Below, in pieces: positions 26,708 to 36,631 of a stretch of 64,000 bases of DNA. A program made the position numbers and the translations under genes. Positions within the stretch are counted from its first letter, which is position 1, and each line of letters opens with the position of its first letter. The stretch spans positions 3,215,200 through 3,279,199 of the forward strand of contig OX639973.1 of NCBI GenBank assembly GCA_951828385.1. The letters run 5' to 3'. Below the pieces are notes generated by a model. The model saw nothing but the letters and a program-made list of their open reading frames with translations. It was not told the DNA's origin and ran no database searches. Origin of the DNA: an uncultured Poribacteria bacterium (GTDB lineage: Bacteria; Poribacteria; WGA-4E; WGA-3G).

Positions 26708-28171
26708 TTACTCATCAGCAGCCTCTTTCACAGTTGGTGTTTTAGAAACCAACCCATCCTTTTCTATAATTGCCTCTCGCGTCATTTGCCAGAAAGGGCT
26801 TCCGGGACCAACGGATTGCCATTCACCGTCCCTGAAAGTGAACACGACATAGTCTTTTTCTGTGTCTGGAAGTCTATCAGGAAAAATTGGTCGGACTGCC
26901 CAGTTGGTGTAGGTAACAGGTTCCCCACTATCCCACTGCCATTCTCCCTCCTTTTCCACGTCGGTAAGTCCGATCCATGAGGAGTGGACTCTAAAAATGA
27001 CCTGAAGCCAGTGCTGCTCGGCTTCGTCATTGATGGAGACGAGATGCGCGCCCGCCTCAATCGCCTTCTGTTGCGCATCGTGCCAATCAATACACTGAAT
27101 TTTTTTGTATGCATGACCGTTCGCGGGATTAATGACCCATACGCTTTTCGCTGGCTTCCTCGCCTGCGGTGGGACAGGCGGCTCGGCTTTAACTTCAGCG
27201 GGGATCTCTATAGCTCCAGGGGCTTTAATATTACCGGGAGACGGTTTAGCAGCAACCGGATTACCATCAAGTGTTAGGACAAGTGCCTCCGGGTGTACAC
27301 CATCTTTAAGTAGGAAGGGGCCCACTCCAGCAGAAAGTTCTTTTTCCACAGAAGGTCCACTATATTTCACAGAAATCGTGTAAAACCCTGGTACATCCAT
27401 GTACTCTGTAAAATAGCCGTCGTCATCCGTAAAATAGTCCATGCTGTAGCTGCCGCCACTTTGTGGATTGAACTCATCGCTTTGCCGCATGTTGAGCCGT
27501 CCGTCGGCGTTGACAAGGGGGGTGCCATCGGCATAAACGATTCGCGCGTGGATCCGCAGCCGCGATTTGACGGTGATTTTGACATTTTCGAGGGTTGTGC
27601 CGGGCTCAAGGGCGAATGTGATCCCTTCAAAAAAGCCAGGCTCCTCCGCGTTATTGAAAACGATGACCTTTCCAATCTGGATAGAGAAGATCTTTTTATC
27701 CGGCTCAAGGGGACCGCGATGTATCAATTCGGGTGGGACCTGTTCTCCTTCCAGAATTTCCTCGGGATCGAACCCCTCAGCCATACCCTGTGGGATGTCT
27801 GGAATCACCTCTAATTGAATGAAACCGGGTTGGATACCGGTGACAGTAAAAGTACCCTCTACATCGGTTCGCACTGTAGACGGGTGTCGTGGCATCCCTG
27901 GGAGATCCATGCCTTCAGGCGGTTTTTGACCGTCCGGTTGGAACTCACCCTCCGGTTGTAACTGACCCTCTTGGCGTTGCATAGGTTGAATAGCGAACGT
28001 GAACCCGCCAACACCCCTACCTTCTAAATCGACAACTTTGCCTGACATGCCACTCGGTGCTTGTAGATCCTGCTCTATGGGCACCTGCGCTGTTGTAACA
28101 CCTATTGTGGTGAATAAAAGCGTTAGTGCTGCGAACACTGTGAGTTTTTGTGCGGTGTAGATCCGACGCAT
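26708..28171 (-). CDS. Secreted carboxypeptidase-regulatory plus C-type-lectin protein
   Basis: 487 residues with a signal peptide (FAALTLLFTTIGVTTAQ). About 38-130 is a carboxypeptidase-regulatory-like beta-sandwich (GMSGKVVDLEGRGVGGFTF, TDVEGTFTVTGIQPGFIQLEV). About 180-300 is a second such region with SYSMDYFTDDDGYFTEYMDVPG. About 345-460 is a C-type lectin fold (AHLVSINDEAEQHWLQ, SSWIGLTDVEKEGEWQWDSGEPVTYTNW in segments). It probably binds surface glycans or proteins. A paralogue lies immediately upstream on the same strand. Confidence 0.88.
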   Translation of the reverse strand: MRRIYTAQKLTVFAALTLLFTTIGVTTAQVPIEQDLQAPSGMSGKVVDLEGRGVGGFTFAIQPMQRQEGQLQPEGEFQPDGQKPPEGMDLPGMPRHPSTVRTDVEGTFTVTGIQPGFIQLEVIPDIPQGMAEGFDPEEILEGEQVPPELIHRGPLEPDKKIFSIQIGKVIVFNNAEEPGFFEGITFALEPGTTLENVKITVKSRLRIHARIVYADGTPLVNADGRLNMRQSDEFNPQSGGSYSMDYFTDDDGYFTEYMDVPGFYTISVKYSGPSVEKELSAGVGPFLLKDGVHPEALVLTLDGNPVAAKPSPGNIKAPGAIEIPAEVKAEPPVPPQARKPAKSVWVINPANGHAYKKIQCIDWHDAQQKAIEAGAHLVSINDEAEQHWLQVIFRVHSSWIGLTDVEKEGEWQWDSGEPVTYTNWAVRPIFPDRLPDTEKDYVVFTFRDGEWQSVGPGSPFWQMTREAIIEKDGLVSKTPTVKEAADE

Positions 28172-28198
28172 CTCTGTACTCCTTATGTGTTGCTGTGC

Positions 28199-29479
28199 TC
28201 AAGGTTTTTCGGTGTCACTGTCTGATTCAGGGGCACCAATAATGAGATTTTCTCTTTCCAAAATCGCGCGTTCCGTTAGGCGTGCGAGGGGACTCCCCTG
28301 ACGGGTGAGCTGCCATTTCTCTGTCAAACCCACGAGGACTGTATATCCCCGACTCACCTCCTCGGTTTGAGGAGACTTGCTACTCTCGGCAGCTTCCTTT
28401 GGCGAATTCCAATTCGTGTAAGTGATCGGTTCGCCGTTGTCCCATTGTTGCTCTGTTTCCTCTGCGTCAACAGTGAGTCCGATCCAAAAGTTTTCTCGTT
28501 TTCCAAAGACTTCGAGGATCCACTGTTGTTCTGCTTCATCGTTGATAGCGACGAGGTGAGCCTCTTGGGCGACTGCTCGCGCCTGTGCCTCTTCACGGGT
28601 GTCGCAGCGAATCATTTTATACGCGTGTCGGTTGTCGGGATTGATTGCCCACATGCCTTCGCGTTCCCGTTTCCGCGCAGCTTCAAAGCGTGCCCGGTCG
28701 TGGACGTGAGGGGCTACTTCTACTTTCTCGGGTTTAGGGGGTTGAGGCTCAGCACTAAGCGTCAAGACAAGTCCATCAAGCCGCTGACCATCTTCAAGTA
28801 AAATCTCCTCGGATTCCACAGATCGTCCTTCGTATTTCACGGTAACGGTGTAATAGGCAGCCGCATTCACATATTTCGTAAAGTAACCGTCAGGATCAAG
28901 CGTTGTTGGACCACTGCTGCCGCCACCGCCACCTTTCAAGCGTCGTCGGTTGAGGCTGAAATCAACACGTGCATTGCTAAGCGGAGTGCCATCGGCGGAA
29001 AGGACGCGCCCACGGATACGCATCCGTAGTCGGACGATTATCTCTATGTCTTTAACATCTGCACCCTGTTCAATAGTGAAAGGAAATCCACCTCTCTGCC
29101 AGCGGTGCATCTGTGGATCGAGATGAAAGGTTGCTCCATCAATTTTGATGCTTTGAAATTCGTATTCCGCTTCATGTTCAGGCATTAACATAAGTGTATG
29201 GACTGCAGGCGAAGCGATGTCAATGATTGAGAACGCGCCTGTTTCGTCTGTCTCGCTGGGTTGCGTGGGTGGGAACATAGGTTCAGGTCTGTGGTGCCGG
29301 TTTGCTGGCATCTCGCCTGCGAATGACGAGAAACCTACGATAACGTTAGGAACCGGTTGCCCCGCTTCATCGATCACCCTTCCTGAAAAACTTGCCGCTA
29401 CGCTCGGTAGAGCCGTCGAAACCAAAAGCGCAACACTCACAACGCAAACGCCAAGGAATGTCGGGTAAGAACGCTTCAT
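28199..29479 (-). CDS. Secreted carboxypeptidase-regulatory plus C-type-lectin protein (paralogue)
   Basis: 426 residues with a signal peptide ending near SVAAS. The domain order repeats that of the downstream gene: FSGRVIDEAGQPVPNVIVGF, then TDETGAFSIIDI, a YFTKYVNAAAYYTVTVKYEG region, then a C-type lectin fold (AHLVAINDEAEQQWILEVFG, NFWIGLTVDAEETEQQWDNGEPITYTNW in segments). The 27-bp spacing and shared architecture show tandem duplication. A charge-rich linker (RARFEAARKRERE) precedes the lectin fold. No transmembrane anchor seen. Confidence 0.88.
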   Translation of the reverse strand: MKRSYPTFLGVCVVSVALLVSTALPSVAASFSGRVIDEAGQPVPNVIVGFSSFAGEMPANRHHRPEPMFPPTQPSETDETGAFSIIDIASPAVHTLMLMPEHEAEYEFQSIKIDGATFHLDPQMHRWQRGGFPFTIEQGADVKDIEIIVRLRMRIRGRVLSADGTPLSNARVDFSLNRRRLKGGGGGSSGPTTLDPDGYFTKYVNAAAYYTVTVKYEGRSVESEEILLEDGQRLDGLVLTLSAEPQPPKPEKVEVAPHVHDRARFEAARKREREGMWAINPDNRHAYKMIRCDTREEAQARAVAQEAHLVAINDEAEQQWILEVFGKRENFWIGLTVDAEETEQQWDNGEPITYTNWNSPKEAAESSKSPQTEEVSRGYTVLVGLTEKWQLTRQGSPLARLTERAILERENLIIGAPESDSDTEKP

Positions 29480-29575
29480 AGTAGATACCTCCTTTTGTTA
29501 ATAGGGGTAAAAAGGTCGGAGTGAATCTGTATTACACGAATATATTATAGCACTTGTGTGAGCTATTGACAACAT

Positions 29576-29961: not shown

Positions 29962-32229
29962 GTGAGAAACGACCAAACCGACTTCCTCCACATCGGAGAG
30001 CAAAAAGGCTACATCGAACTCCTCAACAAAGGAACAACAATTCGCTATATTGCCCCAAACAAAAAATACAGATTCACCAATCCAGAAGAACAGGTCCGCG
30101 CAAAATTTTACGTTGAGTTAATCGAGTATTTCCAATACTCCGAAAACCGAATTGATTTAGAGGTAACTGTTCCACGCAGGACCCCTTCCGATCTTGCCGA
30201 CATTGTTGTTTTCCAAGATGATGACAAGAAAGATCCTTTTATTGTCGTTGAGTGTAAAAAGGACGAAACTTCTGAGGCAGAATTTGAGCAGGCAATTGAA
30301 CAGGCTTTCGGGAACTGTAACTCTTTGAGCGGACATTACGCCGTTGTCGTTGCAGGAAACACGCGTAGATCCTTTGATGTTAAAAACTATAAACCGGGTG
30401 AACGCACAGAAAATATCATCGCCGATCCGCCGGTAGGATACGGCAAAGTCCAAGAATGGCGATATCTAAAAGGTGACCCTCGCTCGGAACTTTCCGTCAT
30501 TGAAAGAGGCGATCTCATTCGTGTCCTTGAGAAATGCCACCAAACGCTCTGGCAAGGCGGCAAATTCGCACCGACACAGGCATTCGATGAACTCGCCAAG
30601 ATTCTTTTTATCAAAATCCGGGATGAAAAGAAACTACGACGGGACGGTGAACCTTACGATTTTCAGATTAAGACGCGTGAAACCTCAGAATCCGTTGCAA
30701 ATCGAATTAACGCACTCTATCAGGACGCAAAAACACAAGAGCCAGAGGTGTTTACAGAGAATATTGAAATTGATGAAAATAGATTGTTTTCTGTCGTTAA
30801 TCACTTGCAGGGGATTAGCCTCAACCAAACCGATTTGGATGTGAAAGGTGTCGCTTTTGAACGGTTCTTAGGCAATTTTTTTAAAGGCGAAACCGGACAG
30901 TTTTTCACACCTCGCGAAGTGGTTGAGTTTATGGTTGATATGGTCACGCCGCACCATGAAGAACTCATCCTCGATCCTGCCTGCGGTTCGGGTGGTTTTC
31001 TGTTACATGCGATGGATTACATCCGTAAACAGGCATCCGACTACTACGACGAAGAAAGTCGAGAACATTATCTCCATTGGCACGATTTCGCCGAAAAACG
31101 ACTTTTCGGAATTGAAGTCAACGACTCCATTGCCCGTGTTGCAAAGATGAATATGATCATTCACGATGATGGGCATAGCAACGTTATCAGCAATGATGCA
31201 CTTGTCGGCTTTGATACGCTCCGCAACCAACACAGTAGTTTTGAAAAAGAGAAATTTGATGTAATCCTTACGAATCCACCTTTCGGAGCAGACATCAAAC
31301 AAGCAGAATTGCCTTATCTTGAAAACTATGAACTTGGCAAAGGAAAAACTTCTCGAAAGACTGAAATTCTGTTTCTTGAACGCTGTTTCGACTTCCTCAA
31401 ATGGAAAACTGGAAAACTCGCGATTATTCTACCGGACGGCATTTTGACCAACTCTTCACTGCAAGATGTCCGCGATTACATTGAACGGCATTTCCAAATC
31501 CGCGCCGTTGTCTCACTGCCACAGATTGCTTTCTCACATTACGGTGCCGGTGTTAAAACGTCTATTCTGTTCCTCCGAAAGTTATCGAAACAAGAATATG
31601 ACCGCTATCAAGCTGCCATCAATCAAATTACGCAAAAGAACGAAGCTGGCTATGTCCCTCAGATTGAGGCACTTGAAGATGAACGGCAGACTACTATCAC
31701 AAAAGGATCTCCAGCACAAGTCGATGTAATGGAAACTTATAGGCAGCAATTCATGGCTATTTTGGACAGTATTGATGCCTTAAATCAGAAACTCGACAAA
31801 ACGCCAACGAAAAAAGTTCAAACCCTTAGTGCCTTTTTCTTTCCAGAGATTGAGTCCACACCTACTACAGAATATGAATCATTGGACGCACAAACCGCAC
31901 GTGCAGAACTCAAGGCACAGACCGCCAAACTGAACGCGCTGGAGAAGGAATATAAAGCGGCATTCAAAGCAGCAGCCGATCCGGAGTGGGAAAACGAAAT
32001 CAAAGCGGAATACAAAGAACAGATTGACGCTGTTAAAAAGGAATGGGAAGAAAAAAATGTAGAAGACATCCGCGAATGGGTTCGGGAAAATGCCAATCAC
32101 TCAATCTTCATGGCGATCGCTGAGCGTATCGGATATGACGCAACAGGACGCAAGGACTCCGTTAACGAGCTAAACACTATCTGTGAAGAATATCGCAAGT
32201 TCATTGAGAACCCAGATTTTTTCGGGTAA
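29962..32229 (+). CDS. HSDR_N nuclease plus HsdM adenine methyltransferase (type I-like / type IIB-like)
   Basis: 755 residues (GTG start at 29962). Residues about 25-165 form a PD-(D/E)xK nuclease domain of the HSDR_N type, with Asp80 (SDLADIVVF) and the E97-C-K99 motif (VVECKK). About 300-560 is an N6-adenine methyltransferase with SAM motif DPACGSGGF (338-346) and catalytic NPPF (438-441). The C-terminus is coiled-coil-like (ARAELKAQTAKLNALEKEYKAAF). A single protein thus carries nuclease and methyltransferase, as in the BcgI A subunit, and no HsdR helicase gene is nearby. The gene ends at TAA (32227-32229), but a slippery site just before the stop should let some ribosomes continue into the specificity subunit. 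Confidence 0.9.
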   Translation: MRNDQTDFLHIGEQKGYIELLNKGTTIRYIAPNKKYRFTNPEEQVRAKFYVELIEYFQYSENRIDLEVTVPRRTPSDLADIVVFQDDDKKDPFIVVECKKDETSEAEFEQAIEQAFGNCNSLSGHYAVVVAGNTRRSFDVKNYKPGERTENIIADPPVGYGKVQEWRYLKGDPRSELSVIERGDLIRVLEKCHQTLWQGGKFAPTQAFDELAKILFIKIRDEKKLRRDGEPYDFQIKTRETSESVANRINALYQDAKTQEPEVFTENIEIDENRLFSVVNHLQGISLNQTDLDVKGVAFERFLGNFFKGETGQFFTPREVVEFMVDMVTPHHEELILDPACGSGGFLLHAMDYIRKQASDYYDEESREHYLHWHDFAEKRLFGIEVNDSIARVAKMNMIIHDDGHSNVISNDALVGFDTLRNQHSSFEKEKFDVILTNPPFGADIKQAELPYLENYELGKGKTSRKTEILFLERCFDFLKWKTGKLAIILPDGILTNSSLQDVRDYIERHFQIRAVVSLPQIAFSHYGAGVKTSILFLRKLSKQEYDRYQAAINQITQKNEAGYVPQIEALEDERQTTITKGSPAQVDVMETYRQQFMAILDSIDALNQKLDKTPTKKVQTLSAFFFPEIESTPTTEYESLDAQTARAELKAQTAKLNALEKEYKAAFKAAADPEWENEIKAEYKEQIDAVKKEWEEKNVEDIREWVRENANHSIFMAIAERIGYDATGRKDSVNELNTICEEYRKFIENPDFFG

Positions 32230-32269
32230 GCCCTGATAGGGAAAATCAAATTTTTCTCACCTATCGGGG
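32217..32269 (+). promoter_or_regulatory. Predicted -1 programmed ribosomal frameshift signal
   Basis: Slippery heptamer T TTT TTC (32217-32223) is in the zero frame (GAT TTT TTC), followed by a 7-nt spacer (GGGTAAG, containing the stop TAA) and a stem of 10 pairs: CCCTGATAGG (32231-32240) with CCTATCGGGG (32260-32269), one G-U. The loop is 19 nt. A -1 slip reads CGG GTA AGC CCT and enters the HsdS frame. Basis: direct inspection; frameshifting itself is untested. Confidence 0.75.
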
Positions 32270-33638
32270 CGAAATAGTCAACAAGCGGATTGATGCCTAC
32301 TATTACCAACCCAAATTTAAGGCTACCGACAAAGCACTGAAAAACGCTCAATTTGATGTTGTCAATTTGGGTGCCTTGATAAGTGACATATCAAGTGGAG
32401 CTACGCCAAAGGTTGACGAAAATTACTATACAGATGCGTCCGGTATCCCGTTTTTAAGGGTCCAAAATGTTACGGACGAAGGAATTGATTTGAGCGATGT
32501 GAAATTTATCAAGAGAGACGTTCATAACGGCATGCTCAAGCGTTCGCAAGTTAAAAAAGACGATCTGGTGTTTACAATAACTGGTAGAATTGGAAGTGTT
32601 GCGGTTGTACCAGATAACTTTGAAGGAAATATAAATCAGCATTCCGTTCGATTTCAACTCAAAACACAAATTACGAACATCGCCATTAACCCGCGTTACG
32701 TAGCTGTTTCCCTTAATTTACCTCTCGGTCAATCTTTGGCACTCCGAGAGGTGACGGGTGGAACTCGTCCCGCACTCGATTACAAAGCCTTATATTCCCT
32801 CAAAACTATTCTTCCACCTACCAACATCCAAAATCACATCGTCAGCATCATGAGATCTGCGTATGCAGAGAAAAAACAGAAAGAGGAGGAAGCGGACGCA
32901 TTCTTGGATTCAATTGATGATTATGTGCTTCAGGAATTGCGGATCGAAATGCTAGTAACTGAAGAAAAGAAGCGTTTTGTAGTTTATGCAGGAGAAATTG
33001 AAGGACGTTTTGACCCTTTATACATGAGTAATATATCCCATATTAGAAACCTTAAAACGCCATATCCTCTGACCCGACTAAGAAAACTTTTAATTCAGAA
33101 ACCCCAGTATGGCGCAAACGAAAGGGCAGTTGACGGCAATCCTGAAACTGACGTTCGATACATCCGGATTACTGATATAGACGACTACGGAAACCTACTG
33201 GAGGACTGGAAAACTGCAGAAGCAATACATTCCAAATACTTGCTTGAAGAAAATGATGTCCTCTTTGCCAGAAGTGGTTCAGCGGGACGGGCGTTTATTT
33301 ACAAAAACGAATTGGGTAAAGCCGTTTTTGCAGGATATCTGATTCGATTTAAGTTTGATCCCGCGAAAGTAAATCCTTCATTTGTATTCCATTATACATT
33401 GACAACAATTTACAAATTGTGGGTACAATCAATTCAACGAACATCTGTACAGGCAAATATAAATTCAAAAGAATTTCAGTCACTTGAGATTCCGCTGCCA
33501 CCGCTTGATGTCCAAAATCAGATTGTAGAAGAAGTTAATAGGCGTTTGGCTCACGTGGCAGAGCTTAGGCAAGAAGCGAATACTACCGTGGAGGAGGCAA
33601 AAGAGAGAGTTGAGCGGATTTTGTTGGCAGAAGGATAG
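32223..33638 (+). CDS. HsdS specificity subunit, entered by -1 frameshift from the upstream gene
   Basis: Restriction-modification DNA specificity protein with two target-recognition halves. The frame opens at 32208 and, up to a TTG at 32367, contains no ATG, GTG or TTG, yet this region is clearly coding: it reads RENQIFLTYRGEIVNKRIDA and YYYQPKF. That parallels the second half's start, KKRFVVYAGEIEGRFDPLYM, so the two halves are internal repeats. TRD1 spans about 32370-32830, the conserved spacer LPPTNIQNHIVSIMR and coiled coil lead to TRD2 (33000-33500), and LPPLDVQNQIVEEVNRRL is the second conserved region. From the slippery site the fusion would add 471 residues to the 754-residue upstream part. 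Confidence 0.85.
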   Translation, partial: RVSPDRENQIFLTYRGEIVNKRIDAYYYQPKFKATDKALKNAQFDVVNLGALISDISSGATPKVDENYYTDASGIPFLRVQNVTDEGIDLSDVKFIKRDVHNGMLKRSQVKKDDLVFTITGRIGSVAVVPDNFEGNINQHSVRFQLKTQITNIAINPRYVAVSLNLPLGQSLALREVTGGTRPALDYKALYSLKTILPPTNIQNHIVSIMRSAYAEKKQKEEEADAFLDSIDDYVLQELRIEMLVTEEKKRFVVYAGEIEGRFDPLYMSNISHIRNLKTPYPLTRLRKLLIQKPQYGANERAVDGNPETDVRYIRITDIDDYGNLLEDWKTAEAIHSKYLLEENDVLFARSGSAGRAFIYKNELGKAVFAGYLIRFKFDPAKVNPSFVFHYTLTTIYKLWVQSIQRTSVQANINSKEFQSLEIPLPPLDVQNQIVEEVNRRLAHVAELRQEANTTVEEAKERVERILLAEG

Positions 33639-33700: not shown

Positions 33701-34615
33701 TCATTTTTTTAAGAATTGCAATGCTGCTTCTACCATCTCATCTGTAGTTTCATTCATCTGTCTTTCCATTTCTTGTCTATAGCGGTTATAAAGCCAAGTA
33801 AAAATGAGAGGACCGGTCCGACGATGATTGAAAATACCATCCTGTAACTCACGGCAGGCATCGGTTAACTCCTCAATGTTCGCACCTATCAAGGCTTTTT
33901 CCCATAGATTTTCCGCATGTGTTTTAAGTTTACTTAGCAACACCACCGACTTGTTGTGCTCTATAAGTTGTTGTATCCCAAACAGACAAACGGGCATAAA
34001 TGGAATTACCACTGCTAAAATCCATTTTTCAAAAGTCCAGTCCTTTTTTATCAGTCCAATACCAATAGCAGCGGCGGCCGTAAGTCCCATAACAACAATT
34101 ATTACCTTGGTGTAATGCTGTCTCAGCTCTGCACTCCACCAACAATTTGTTCGCTGACAAACAATCCGCGCTAAATGAATTGGCAATTTACCTGTCGTTA
34201 CAGGGTACCAGTCTTTAAGCTCACTATAAGAAGGCTTCTCAGGTTCATACTTCGCAGCATATTTCGCCACAGTTTCCGCCATTTCCAATTGCGAACCAAC
34301 TGTAAGCTCTCGCCAGTCCAGTTCAAGCACGGCACAATCAAAGGATTCATGAATTCTGGCAGCTTTTTCTTTCAAAGTTTGTCGCCAAGGAGTAAACCAT
34401 AGTATATTGAGACAAGTTATAATTATACCGTAGAGAGCGGTCCAAACGGCAAACTTAGGAAAAAATGCAACAACCAATGAACAAAGCGGAGGACTTAAAA
34501 TGCTGAGTCCTATTTGAATTCCTAAAATAACTTTGGCGTACGAGTCGGATTTTCTTCGTGCTGCCAAACGCTTCAGTTGGGTCGGTTCTAATTGAGTTTC
34601 TATGATTTTATTCAT
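33701..34615 (-). CDS. S-4TM (SMODS-associated four-TM) CBASS effector
   Basis: 304 residues. Four hydrophobic segments at about 27-50 (VILGIQIGLSILSPPLCSL), 56-75 (VWTALYGIIITCLNILWF), 170-190 (VIIVVMGLTAAAAIGIGLI) and 200-222 (WILAVVIPFMPVCLFGIQQL), with a soluble central part containing ARIVCQRTNCWW, match the S_4TM effector that accompanies SMODS nucleotidyltransferases. Such effectors are thought to disrupt the membrane when a cyclic nucleotide signal binds. ATG overlaps the stop of the CD-NTase gene (TAATG), so the two are translationally coupled. Confidence 0.9.
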   Translation of the reverse strand: MNKIIETQLEPTQLKRLAARRKSDSYAKVILGIQIGLSILSPPLCSLVVAFFPKFAVWTALYGIIITCLNILWFTPWRQTLKEKAARIHESFDCAVLELDWRELTVGSQLEMAETVAKYAAKYEPEKPSYSELKDWYPVTTGKLPIHLARIVCQRTNCWWSAELRQHYTKVIIVVMGLTAAAAIGIGLIKKDWTFEKWILAVVIPFMPVCLFGIQQLIEHNKSVVLLSKLKTHAENLWEKALIGANIEELTDACRELQDGIFNHRRTGPLIFTWLYNRYRQEMERQMNETTDEMVEAALQFLKK

Positions 34616-35493
34616 TAGTAACGGTAACTCGGGAAATTGTAGTTATAAAGTCGGTTCCACCAATCAAACGCTTCTTTTGTTTTGCCTTTATCTTCGGCAT
34701 CACAAGCGTTTTTCGCACGGGTTAAAGCAGTGGAGAGTTTCGATTTGGCATCCTCAAGTTTTGTATCTGTAGAGCAAGGGCTGATGTAACCGGAAATCCC
34801 CATGGGGTCTTGCATATCCCTCAGATCAATGCTATCTAAGTATGACAATACACCCTTTACATCTTCAGCATAAACGATGGATGATTCGTCTTCTGCGTAT
34901 TTTGTGACTCGCAATTCAAGATAAAAGGAGGAAATCGGGACGTTTCGATAATATTTCCATGCTTTAATGAAGCGAATAAGGGGCTTAACTTTACCTCCCA
35001 AATCCCCGTCGCCATCTTTGACATAAGCATTATGAGCGTCAGGGCTAGAACGCATCCATCCATTGGAACAGTCCGGAATATCATAAACTCTATAGTCGTC
35101 TTCGGTAGTTTTGATATAATCCGCAGGAGTGACCTCTGTACTTTCTTTAGCGTCTGTGCCAAATGGAACAACTACAGCAGGACAACTCACACGAACATTC
35201 GTCGTCGGAAAACGTTTTTTCAATGCATCTCGAACCTCTCCGAGCGTGGTTGTAGAATTTGCCTTAAGATTGCAAGTAGGAATCTCGGCAAAGTAATCCA
35301 CATCACTATGTCCGGAAATGCTGGTTCCGTTTCCAAAGGAGCCTGTCCTAAAGAAACTGGTTATACTAAAATTGCTCTCGAGGCAGGCCTTTATGGAAGA
35401 TCGATGATTTTTAGCTGCTGTAGATTCACCGGAAGACGGTGTGAGTGCGCTTAGAAAAGTTGTGAACCCTTGGTTAACGGTTCTGGTAGGCAT
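34615..35493 (-). CDS. CBASS CD-NTase (SMODS nucleotidyltransferase), copy 1
   Basis: 292-residue cyclic-nucleotide synthase of the CBASS phage-defence pathway. GSFGNGTSISG (from residue 51) followed by S-D-V-D at 63-66 gives the hG[GS]..DxD metal site with Asp64 and Asp66. A later ESTEVTPADY region holds the candidate third acidic residue. The C-terminal part (LIRFIKAWKYYRNVPISSFYLELRV) is the SMODS helical half. Its stop overlaps the S-4TM effector start. The protein is acidic. The upstream gene is a close paralogue. Confidence 0.92.
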   Translation of the reverse strand: MPTRTVNQGFTTFLSALTPSSGESTAAKNHRSSIKACLESNFSITSFFRTGSFGNGTSISGHSDVDYFAEIPTCNLKANSTTTLGEVRDALKKRFPTTNVRVSCPAVVVPFGTDAKESTEVTPADYIKTTEDDYRVYDIPDCSNGWMRSSPDAHNAYVKDGDGDLGGKVKPLIRFIKAWKYYRNVPISSFYLELRVTKYAEDESSIVYAEDVKGVLSYLDSIDLRDMQDPMGISGYISPCSTDTKLEDAKSKLSTALTRAKNACDAEDKGKTKEAFDWWNRLYNYNFPSYRY

Positions 35494-35648
35494 TGGTCTT
35501 CACCTCAAAATAAGTATAATTTCTGTCAGTAGAATAATGATTTACCCTGCAAGGAGGATAAGTAGCATATGTGGACAAAGCCTATTGCACTATGCTATTG
35601 AAGGTGCACCACGAATGGGAATTTGTCCTACTTTCAAACTGCTTTGGT

Positions 35649-36539
35649 TTAGTAATAGTAACTTGGAAATTTACGATTATACAGCATGTTCCACCAATGA
35701 AAAGCATTTTTTATGTTTCCACTTTTTCTCGCATGACAAGCCTTTTGAGCTCGGGTTAAAGCAGTAGAAAGTTTAGACTTCCCTTGCTTAAGTTTAGTTT
35801 TTGTAGAACAAGCACTAATATAACCGGAAATTCCCATGGGGTCTTGCATCTTTGCTAGTCCTACGGCGTGCAAATGAGAAAAAATACGCCTTATGGCTAC
35901 ATCATGTGTATTATAAACAATACCTGAATTTCTTTCAGCGTATTTTGCTACTCGTAATTCCAAGTAAAAAGAGGAAATTGGGACCTTTTGACAGTACTTC
36001 CACGCTTTAATGAAGCGAATGAGTCGTTTCACTTGTCCTTCCAACTTTTGGTCAACCTTTCTGACATAGGCATTATGAGCATGAGGGCTAGAAAATATCC
36101 AACCGTTGGAAGAGGCTGGAATCCTATAAATTCTATATTTACCTTTTTTGGTAAGTCTGATATACCTTGCAGGAGTAATTTCAGTACTTTCTTTGGCATT
36201 TGTGCCAAATGGGATAATAACAGCAGGACAACTTACGCTAATATCTGTCTTTGGGAAACGTATACTTAAGGCATTTCTCATTCGATTTAATGTATATATA
36301 GAATTCTTATTAAGGTTCCGAGCTGGAATTTCAGCAAAATAATCCACATCACTATGTCCGGAAATGCTCGTTCCATTTCCAAAGGAGCCTGTCCTAAAGA
36401 AATAGGTCATACCAAAACTGCTTTTTAGACATGCTTCTATGGAAGCCCGATGTATTATTGCTGCAGTAGATTCTCTGGGAGTAGGTGTGAGCCTACTGAG
36501 AAAATCTCTAAATCCTCGATCAATAGTTTTAGTTGGCAT
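35649..36539 (-). CDS. CBASS CD-NTase (SMODS nucleotidyltransferase), copy 2
   Basis: 296 residues, paralogous to the downstream copy across its whole length. It has the same GSFGNGTSISG and SDVDYF motif at residues 51-68 and the same CPAVIIPFG and ESTEITPARY blocks. Many Asp/Glu of copy 1 are Lys/Arg here (RLTKKGKYRIYRIPASSNGW against IKTTEDDYRVYDIPDCSNGW), so it is much more basic. The catalytic Asp pair is kept, so it may still be active. It is 155 bp upstream of copy 1 on the same strand, in an AT-rich stretch. Confidence 0.9.
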   Translation of the reverse strand: MPTKTIDRGFRDFLSRLTPTPRESTAAIIHRASIEACLKSSFGMTYFFRTGSFGNGTSISGHSDVDYFAEIPARNLNKNSIYTLNRMRNALSIRFPKTDISVSCPAVIIPFGTNAKESTEITPARYIRLTKKGKYRIYRIPASSNGWIFSSPHAHNAYVRKVDQKLEGQVKRLIRFIKAWKYCQKVPISSFYLELRVAKYAERNSGIVYNTHDVAIRRIFSHLHAVGLAKMQDPMGISGYISACSTKTKLKQGKSKLSTALTRAQKACHARKSGNIKNAFHWWNMLYNRKFPSYYY

Positions 36540-36631
36540 TGGTATTTACCTTAAAGTCGGTTTCATTACCATCAGCAGAACAATAGGCATCTTATAGAAA
36601 ACACAAGTGAACCTGTAAAAAATCGTTATAT

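Follow-up and report, generated by a model that had tools for sequence, protein, structure and literature searches.

A Type IIB-like restriction-modification (R-M) gene of an uncultured member of the Poribacteria, a phylum of sponge-associated bacteria, is very probably joined to the adjoining specificity gene by a programmed −1 ribosomal frameshift signal. As read from the DNA, the gene pair is predicted to give two products, the RM subunit, in which nuclease and methyltransferase are combined, and a fusion of RM with the specificity subunit (S), here termed RM-S. The locus lies within a 64,000-nt stretch of DNA (the window) from a 6.66-Mb genome assembled as one contig. The signal consists of a slippery heptamer in phase with the RM frame and a stem a fixed distance downstream; it recurs across phyla, its stem covaries, and throughout the Poribacteria it accompanies an S frame with no start codon of its own at the junction.

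Organization of the RM-S locus

By ORF reading, the RM frame extends from a GTG at 29962 to a TAA at 32227-32229 and ends in GAT TTT TTC GGG TAA. Domain profiles identify an HsdR-type PD-(D/E)XK nuclease domain followed by an N6-adenine methyltransferase, and the nearest solved structure is RM.BsaXI, a Type IIB enzyme (8w0p, E 2.5e-43). The nuclease motif D...ECK is present in the window RM, and D...E-x-K is retained in 40/40 loci covering the region. The S frame comprises 476 open codons in the −1 register, from 32208 to a TAG at 33636-33638. A preliminary description of this DNA had reported no S start codon between the last stop and 32367, and the first ATG, GTG or TTG in the frame is indeed a TTG at that position, 140 nt past the RM stop. 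The same description proposed a 755-residue RM and a fused protein of about 1225 residues, with which the ORF lengths agree (754 + 471 = 1225 aa).

The presence of nuclease and N6 methyltransferase in one chain (HSDR_N_2 + N6_Mtase), together with a two-TRD S (Methylase_S, two stretches), agrees with the architecture of the BcgI-like Type IIB enzymes. Type I systems carry a separate HsdR with a translocase domain; none was found by reading the ORFs in 25-40 kb of the window, and the position of the nuclease domain inside RM also speaks against a Type I assignment. Nor do RM and S form the one continuous ORF of AloI-like systems, as RM stops at 32227 and S follows in the −1 register. Assignment to the MADS systems (MAD2/MAD5) was rejected on profile scores of 303.9 vs 720 bits for MAD2 and 99.4 vs 400 bits for MAD5.

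The canonical heptamer T TTT TTC that had been proposed for the end of RM is found there in the correct phase and conforms to the X XXY YYZ pattern of −1 frameshift sites (Table 1). The proposed downstream stem-loop is likewise present, with altered dimensions: the stem has 11 bp, not 10, and the spacer is therefore 6 nt, not 7. A covariation-conserved RNA structure 5-8 nt downstream is the second mark of such sites, and here the structure stands at 6 nt in 42/42 loci. Compared with dinucleotide shuffles, the fold at the window locus has a z of −3.25 over 85 nt and −4.5 over 65 nt. No Shine-Dalgarno stimulator was obvious by eye.

Table 1. Coordinates of the predicted frameshift locus and of example phage cassettes
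Feature	Coordinates	Strand	Remarks
RM subunit: PD-(D/E)XK nuclease (HSDR_N_2) + gamma N6-adenine methyltransferase	29962..32229	+	755 aa; also N-terminal part of the predicted fusion
S region, −1 frame after the predicted slip	32223..33638	+	471 codons + stop TAG; two Methylase_S (TRD) domains
Slippery heptamer T TTT TTC	32217..32223	+	In phase with RM frame; relatives keep it or swap it for T TTT TTT, C CCT TTT or A AAT TTT
Spacer, 6 nt	32224..32229	+	Contains zero-frame stop TAA (32227-32229); stem 6 nt past heptamer in 42/42 loci
Putative stimulatory stem, 5′ arm GCCCTGATAGG	32230..32240	+	Folding, conservation, covariation
Putative stimulatory stem, 3′ arm CCTATCGGGGC	32260..32270	+	Folding, conservation, covariation
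Portal-MuF cassette examples	L174:2445-5125; L206:3825-6547; L292:3986-6708		

Two neighboring gene groups occupy the − strand. At 33701-36545, convergent with the adjoining RM-S genes, an S_4TM effector gene and two SMODS nucleotidyltransferase genes resemble a CBASS-like defence system, and the RM-S locus therefore looks like part of a defence island. At 26708-29497 lie two adjacent paralogues with carboxypeptidase-regulatory-like and C-type lectin domains.

Conservation of the junction among relatives

We gathered 80 relatives of the RM protein from GTDB genomes, plus further ones from sampled phyla, and among the relatives collected the RM/S junctions adopt four states: (a) the frameshift type, with 42 loci including that of the window; (b) S beginning with an ordinary ATG, GTG or TTG at the RM stop, whatever its frame, with about 30 loci; (c) a full in-frame RM-S fusion of 1178-1226 aa, with 4 loci; and (d) RM followed by roughly half of S, interpreted as a single TRD, with 9 loci and lengths of 819-856 aa. 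Frameshift-type loci occur in at least nine phyla (Poribacteria, Bacteroidota, Balneolota, Chlorobiota, Cyanobacteriota, Planctomycetota, Chloroflexota, Pseudomonadota and Coatesbacteria), and the 42 are not independent, 18 being Poribacteria or nearly so and 24 coming from elsewhere. All 42 possess a heptamer in RM phase, S in the −1 register and a stem exactly 6 nt past the heptamer, the one counted in L165 being a T TTT TTT one codon upstream. The heptamers (TTTTTTC in 34 loci, TTTTTTT in 5, CCCTTTT in 2 and AAATTTT in 1) are all of the form H HHT TTY; one survey ranks the H_HH.U_UU.Y class among the most efficient in E. coli (PMC4066793).

The heptamer is tightly associated with the lack of a start codon: an in-phase heptamer lies at most 10 nt from the stop in 35/37 start-less −1 loci vs 0/29 start-codon loci (Fisher p 1e-16), and the remaining two start-less loci have one at −22. 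Neither heptamer nor stem is present where an RM-S relative has an ordinary S start codon. Alignment of homologous RM-S pairs, suggested earlier as a check, thus bears out the preliminary description in that the heptamer and its spacing are kept, as is the stem, which covaries, and every Poribacteria relative lacks an upstream S start codon. Because phase, 6-nt spacer, stem and start-less −1 frame are kept in 41 further loci, the arrangement in the window is not due to chance.

Some distant frameshift-type relatives have a GTG, TTG or ATG early in the −1 frame (e.g. L097 at +14, L107 at +14, L100 at +11), and some separate S may therefore be made in these few. An ATG or GTG also precedes the RM stop in the −1 frame, by about 70 nt in L087, L091, L145 and L022, and a GTG by 40 nt in L131 and L132. 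In five loci (L034, L037, L039, L022 and L099) S is interrupted downstream of the frameshift site, close to the border between its two half-S units in L022 and L039; such broken frames could represent half-S genes, decay or assembly errors. One further locus, L159, was taken by eye for a C CCT TTT frameshift site and was dropped, as its S overlaps RM at an ATG and lies in the +1 frame. Plasmid and phage records yielded no annotated close relative.

Stem covariation, folding and codon constraint

Changes on both sides of the helix were detected for 7 of 10 stem pairs, with 49 cells changed on both sides vs 20 in shuffles, and the covariation score of 0.518 vs 0.214 in shuffles was equaled by none of 500 shuffles. 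The 3′ arms were placed with the help of folding, which biases the percentage of paired cells upward, and the result is accordingly to be read with the shuffled controls and with a slid control in which shifting the partner by one column lowers paired cells from 90% to about 52%. Mean fold z at the site is −4.0 (40/42 below −2). As controls, other parts of the frameshift loci average −0.16, and sequence downstream of the RM stop in relatives with a start codon averages +0.08.

The first part of the −1 frame itself encodes protein, with a post-slip motif FF-RLSP...RGE or FF-RVSP...RGE, and nucleotide conservation at the site is for this reason partly protein constraint. Codon choice within the stem is more uniform than gene usage predicts: Arg is CGG in 32/33 loci (4.5 expected from the usage of those genes), Gly is GGC in 37/39 (11.3 expected) and Ser is AGC in 38/38 (7.6 expected), and the excess of all three persists with Poribacteria excluded. 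Among 17 Poribacteria, the first 18 S codons of the −1 frame, which span the stem, rank first of 493 codon windows for codon conservation at unchanged residues. Synonymous constraint over the last 12 RM-frame codons, taken together in Poribacteria, shows no elevation (z about 0.6), the increase being confined to the heptamer codons and to the S codons of the −1 frame.

In-frame fusions and evolution of the junction

The full in-frame fusions retain traces of the same signal with the frames exchanged. In Chromatium okenii (L094), a sister of the frameshift-type L097 on the tree, RM-S occupies one frame; its junction reads ggT TTT TTT CAATTAC ahead of a stem of the type seen in the frameshift loci (z −4.4), and a slip into the −1 frame would reach a TGA after four codons. 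The other three fusions, all cyanobacterial (L133-L135), have a T9 run at the junction, no strong stem, and a TGA one or two codons downstream in the −1 frame. Since each of the four combines a slippery run with a near −1 stop, slippage there would yield free RM, and RM and RM-S are again both predicted. Frames have likewise been exchanged between species in dnaX (PMC5009743). The fusions of RM with one TRD share no comparable slippery signal at their junctions.

A tree built from the RM methyltransferase region (85 rows), in which the position of the very distant L197 (29% identity) is unsure, requires 6 changes of the frameshift state, and well-supported branches force at least 5 of them. 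The signal has therefore been gained or lost several times, or has moved with S by recombination.

Proposed mechanism

In the model that we favor, ribosomes would read RM up to T TTT TTC, and the majority would terminate at the TAA one codon on and release RM. A minority would pause at the stem, the two Phe tRNAs re-pairing one base back, and would then read on through S to make RM-S, the only apparent source of S. One message would thus supply RM by termination and RM-S by slippage in fixed proportion. The two proteins could then assemble such that two RM domains serve the two TRDs of one S, as in BcgI/BsaXI. We infer slippage in vivo, its efficiency, the assembly of the products and their enzyme and restriction activities from this arrangement.

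It is plausible that frameshifting sets the RM:RM-S ratio to match the 2 RM : 1 S of Type IIB enzymes, and the simplest rule common to the junction types would be one RM domain per TRD. In its broadest form, the proposal is of a widespread Type IIB-like branch that operates as an RM + RM-S heteromer, in which programmed frameshifting sets 1 RM : 1 TRD, the signal is repeatedly gained and lost, and the slip is kept with frames exchanged after in-frame fusion. We advance this broad proposal tentatively, at somewhat less than even confidence.

Alternative explanations

The most serious alternative concerns purpose. Fused products arise from any programmed frameshift, and a genuine slip might merely couple S to RM, for cis-assembly or for keeping S low enough to limit toxicity, with no role in subunit ratio. 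Two observations weigh against this view, namely that the frames-swapped fusions retain the ability to release free RM, and that the 819-856 aa fusions of RM with one TRD lack the shared signal, which fits a rule of 1 RM : 1 TRD; we regard coupling alone as a substantial minority possibility.

Other alternatives dispute the frameshift itself. Slippage of RNA polymerase on the T run could generate a fused message, a reading encouraged by the T6-T9 runs and by L133-L135, whose T9 without a strong stem recalls Thermus dnaX (PMC5009743). However, the CCCTTTT and AAATTTT members have no long run, and the strict X XXY YYZ phase, 6-nt spacer and covarying stem are features of ribosomal frameshifting, rendering transcriptional slippage improbable. 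Marginally less probable again is separate translation of S, by termination-reinitiation or from a non-standard start codon. The distance from the RM stop to the −1 frame is short, ATG/GTG overlaps exist in relatives of the same family, and some loci have a GTG or TTG early in the frame; yet the Poribacteria lack any ATG, GTG or TTG for 47-257 nt past the stop, mostly beyond conserved S sequence, and separate translation would leave unexplained the heptamer, fixed spacer and stem, which start-codon relatives do not have.

A sequencing or assembly indel in the T6 run of an in-frame fusion, which the preliminary description held to be the main alternative, or a recent frameshift mutation producing a pseudogene, is scarcely credible: T6 is a homopolymer run and the genome is one contig, but at least 15 independently assembled Poribacteria, and isolates such as Spirosoma, Larkinella and Deminuibacter, have the same six T's and the same frames with no fusion, the C CCT TTT and A AAT TTT variants preserve the design, and protein constraint acts on both the RM and the S frame on either side of the junction. 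Given this conservation among relatives, error and pseudogene are rejected. Two further readings were discarded: the element is not a terminator, as the T run sits 5′ of the stem, not 3′, and stop-codon readthrough fails because the zero frame past the TAA does not encode S and meets a stop within about 16 codons.

A similar cassette in phages

When IMG/VR was scanned with two patterns derived from the RM junctions, 178 matches were recovered (L166-L343), only one of them, L197, in an RM gene. By far the larger share (149/178) lies between a Mu-like portal gene (Portal_Mu) in the zero frame and a MuF-like gene (Phage_Mu_F) in the −1 frame, and among the portal-type matches the stem arms form 34 different pairs. 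Portal and MuF proteins align to successive parts of a single PHROG profile (890 positions), and a portal-MuF frameshift fusion is predicted in many phages. Because the same cassette occurs at two unrelated gene pairs, its reading as a dedicated frameshift signal is strengthened, and its presence in both settings, RM and phage portal-MuF, points to a modular element under strong selection. The MuF-side protein of L292 also bears a papain-fold glutamine deamidase domain. In L289, L293, L305 and L328 the pattern match falls in a gene pair that is neither RM nor Mu-like portal, with 113-116 aa open upstream and 310 aa in the −1 frame.

Novelty and implications

Recoding in bacteria is well documented for dnaX, insertion sequences and phages. 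The frameshift mechanics proposed here would be standard; what is new is their place, an RM/S pair, and their consequence. The preliminary description knew of no Type I or IIB system controlled in this manner, and we likewise found none in the openly available main texts of bacterial frameshift papers and Type I/IIB reviews, so that priority is probable rather than certain. A −1 site was considered in a C-REase fusion, of which no product was seen (PMC3850674). If the frameshift model is correct, gene annotation in at least nine phyla is prone to mislabel S subunits or overlook them, and RM-S is an actual protein. The stoichiometry problem posed by single-chain enzymes with two TRDs could then be tested directly.

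Comparison with known systems

The predicted signal resembles those of dnaX (tau/gamma) and the IS3-family transposases in its X XXY YYZ heptamer, downstream stem and spacer within the range of 5-8 nt, and in yielding two products with a common N-terminus; it differs in that the gene pair encodes an R-M enzyme and its specificity subunit. Among R-M systems, members of the same family whose RM and S genes overlap in the ordinary way have homologous proteins, but in these an ATG or GTG start lies at the RM stop, with neither heptamer nor stem. The Type IIB systems BcgI and BsaXI share an RM composed of nuclease and N6 methyltransferase, a two-TRD S and the RM-S gene order. Their RM and S are separate, however, whereas here S lacks its own start codon and would be fused to RM by frameshifting. 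Type IIB enzymes contain 2 RM : 1 S (PMC3874165, PMC9159934).

The single-chain Type IIB enzymes AloI and TstI consist of one RM-S chain of about 1250 aa, similar in length to the 1225-aa RM-S predicted here. These enzymes are described as single polypeptides, TstI being a homotetramer, whereas in the present system free RM is predicted to accompany the fusion. How single-chain AloI-type enzymes act has been called a mystery, given 1 RM : 2 TRD (PMC3874165). Free RM supplied by slippage would resolve that mystery for the present RM-S family and, if AloI-like enzymes likewise produce free RM through slippage, would offer a possible answer to how they work.
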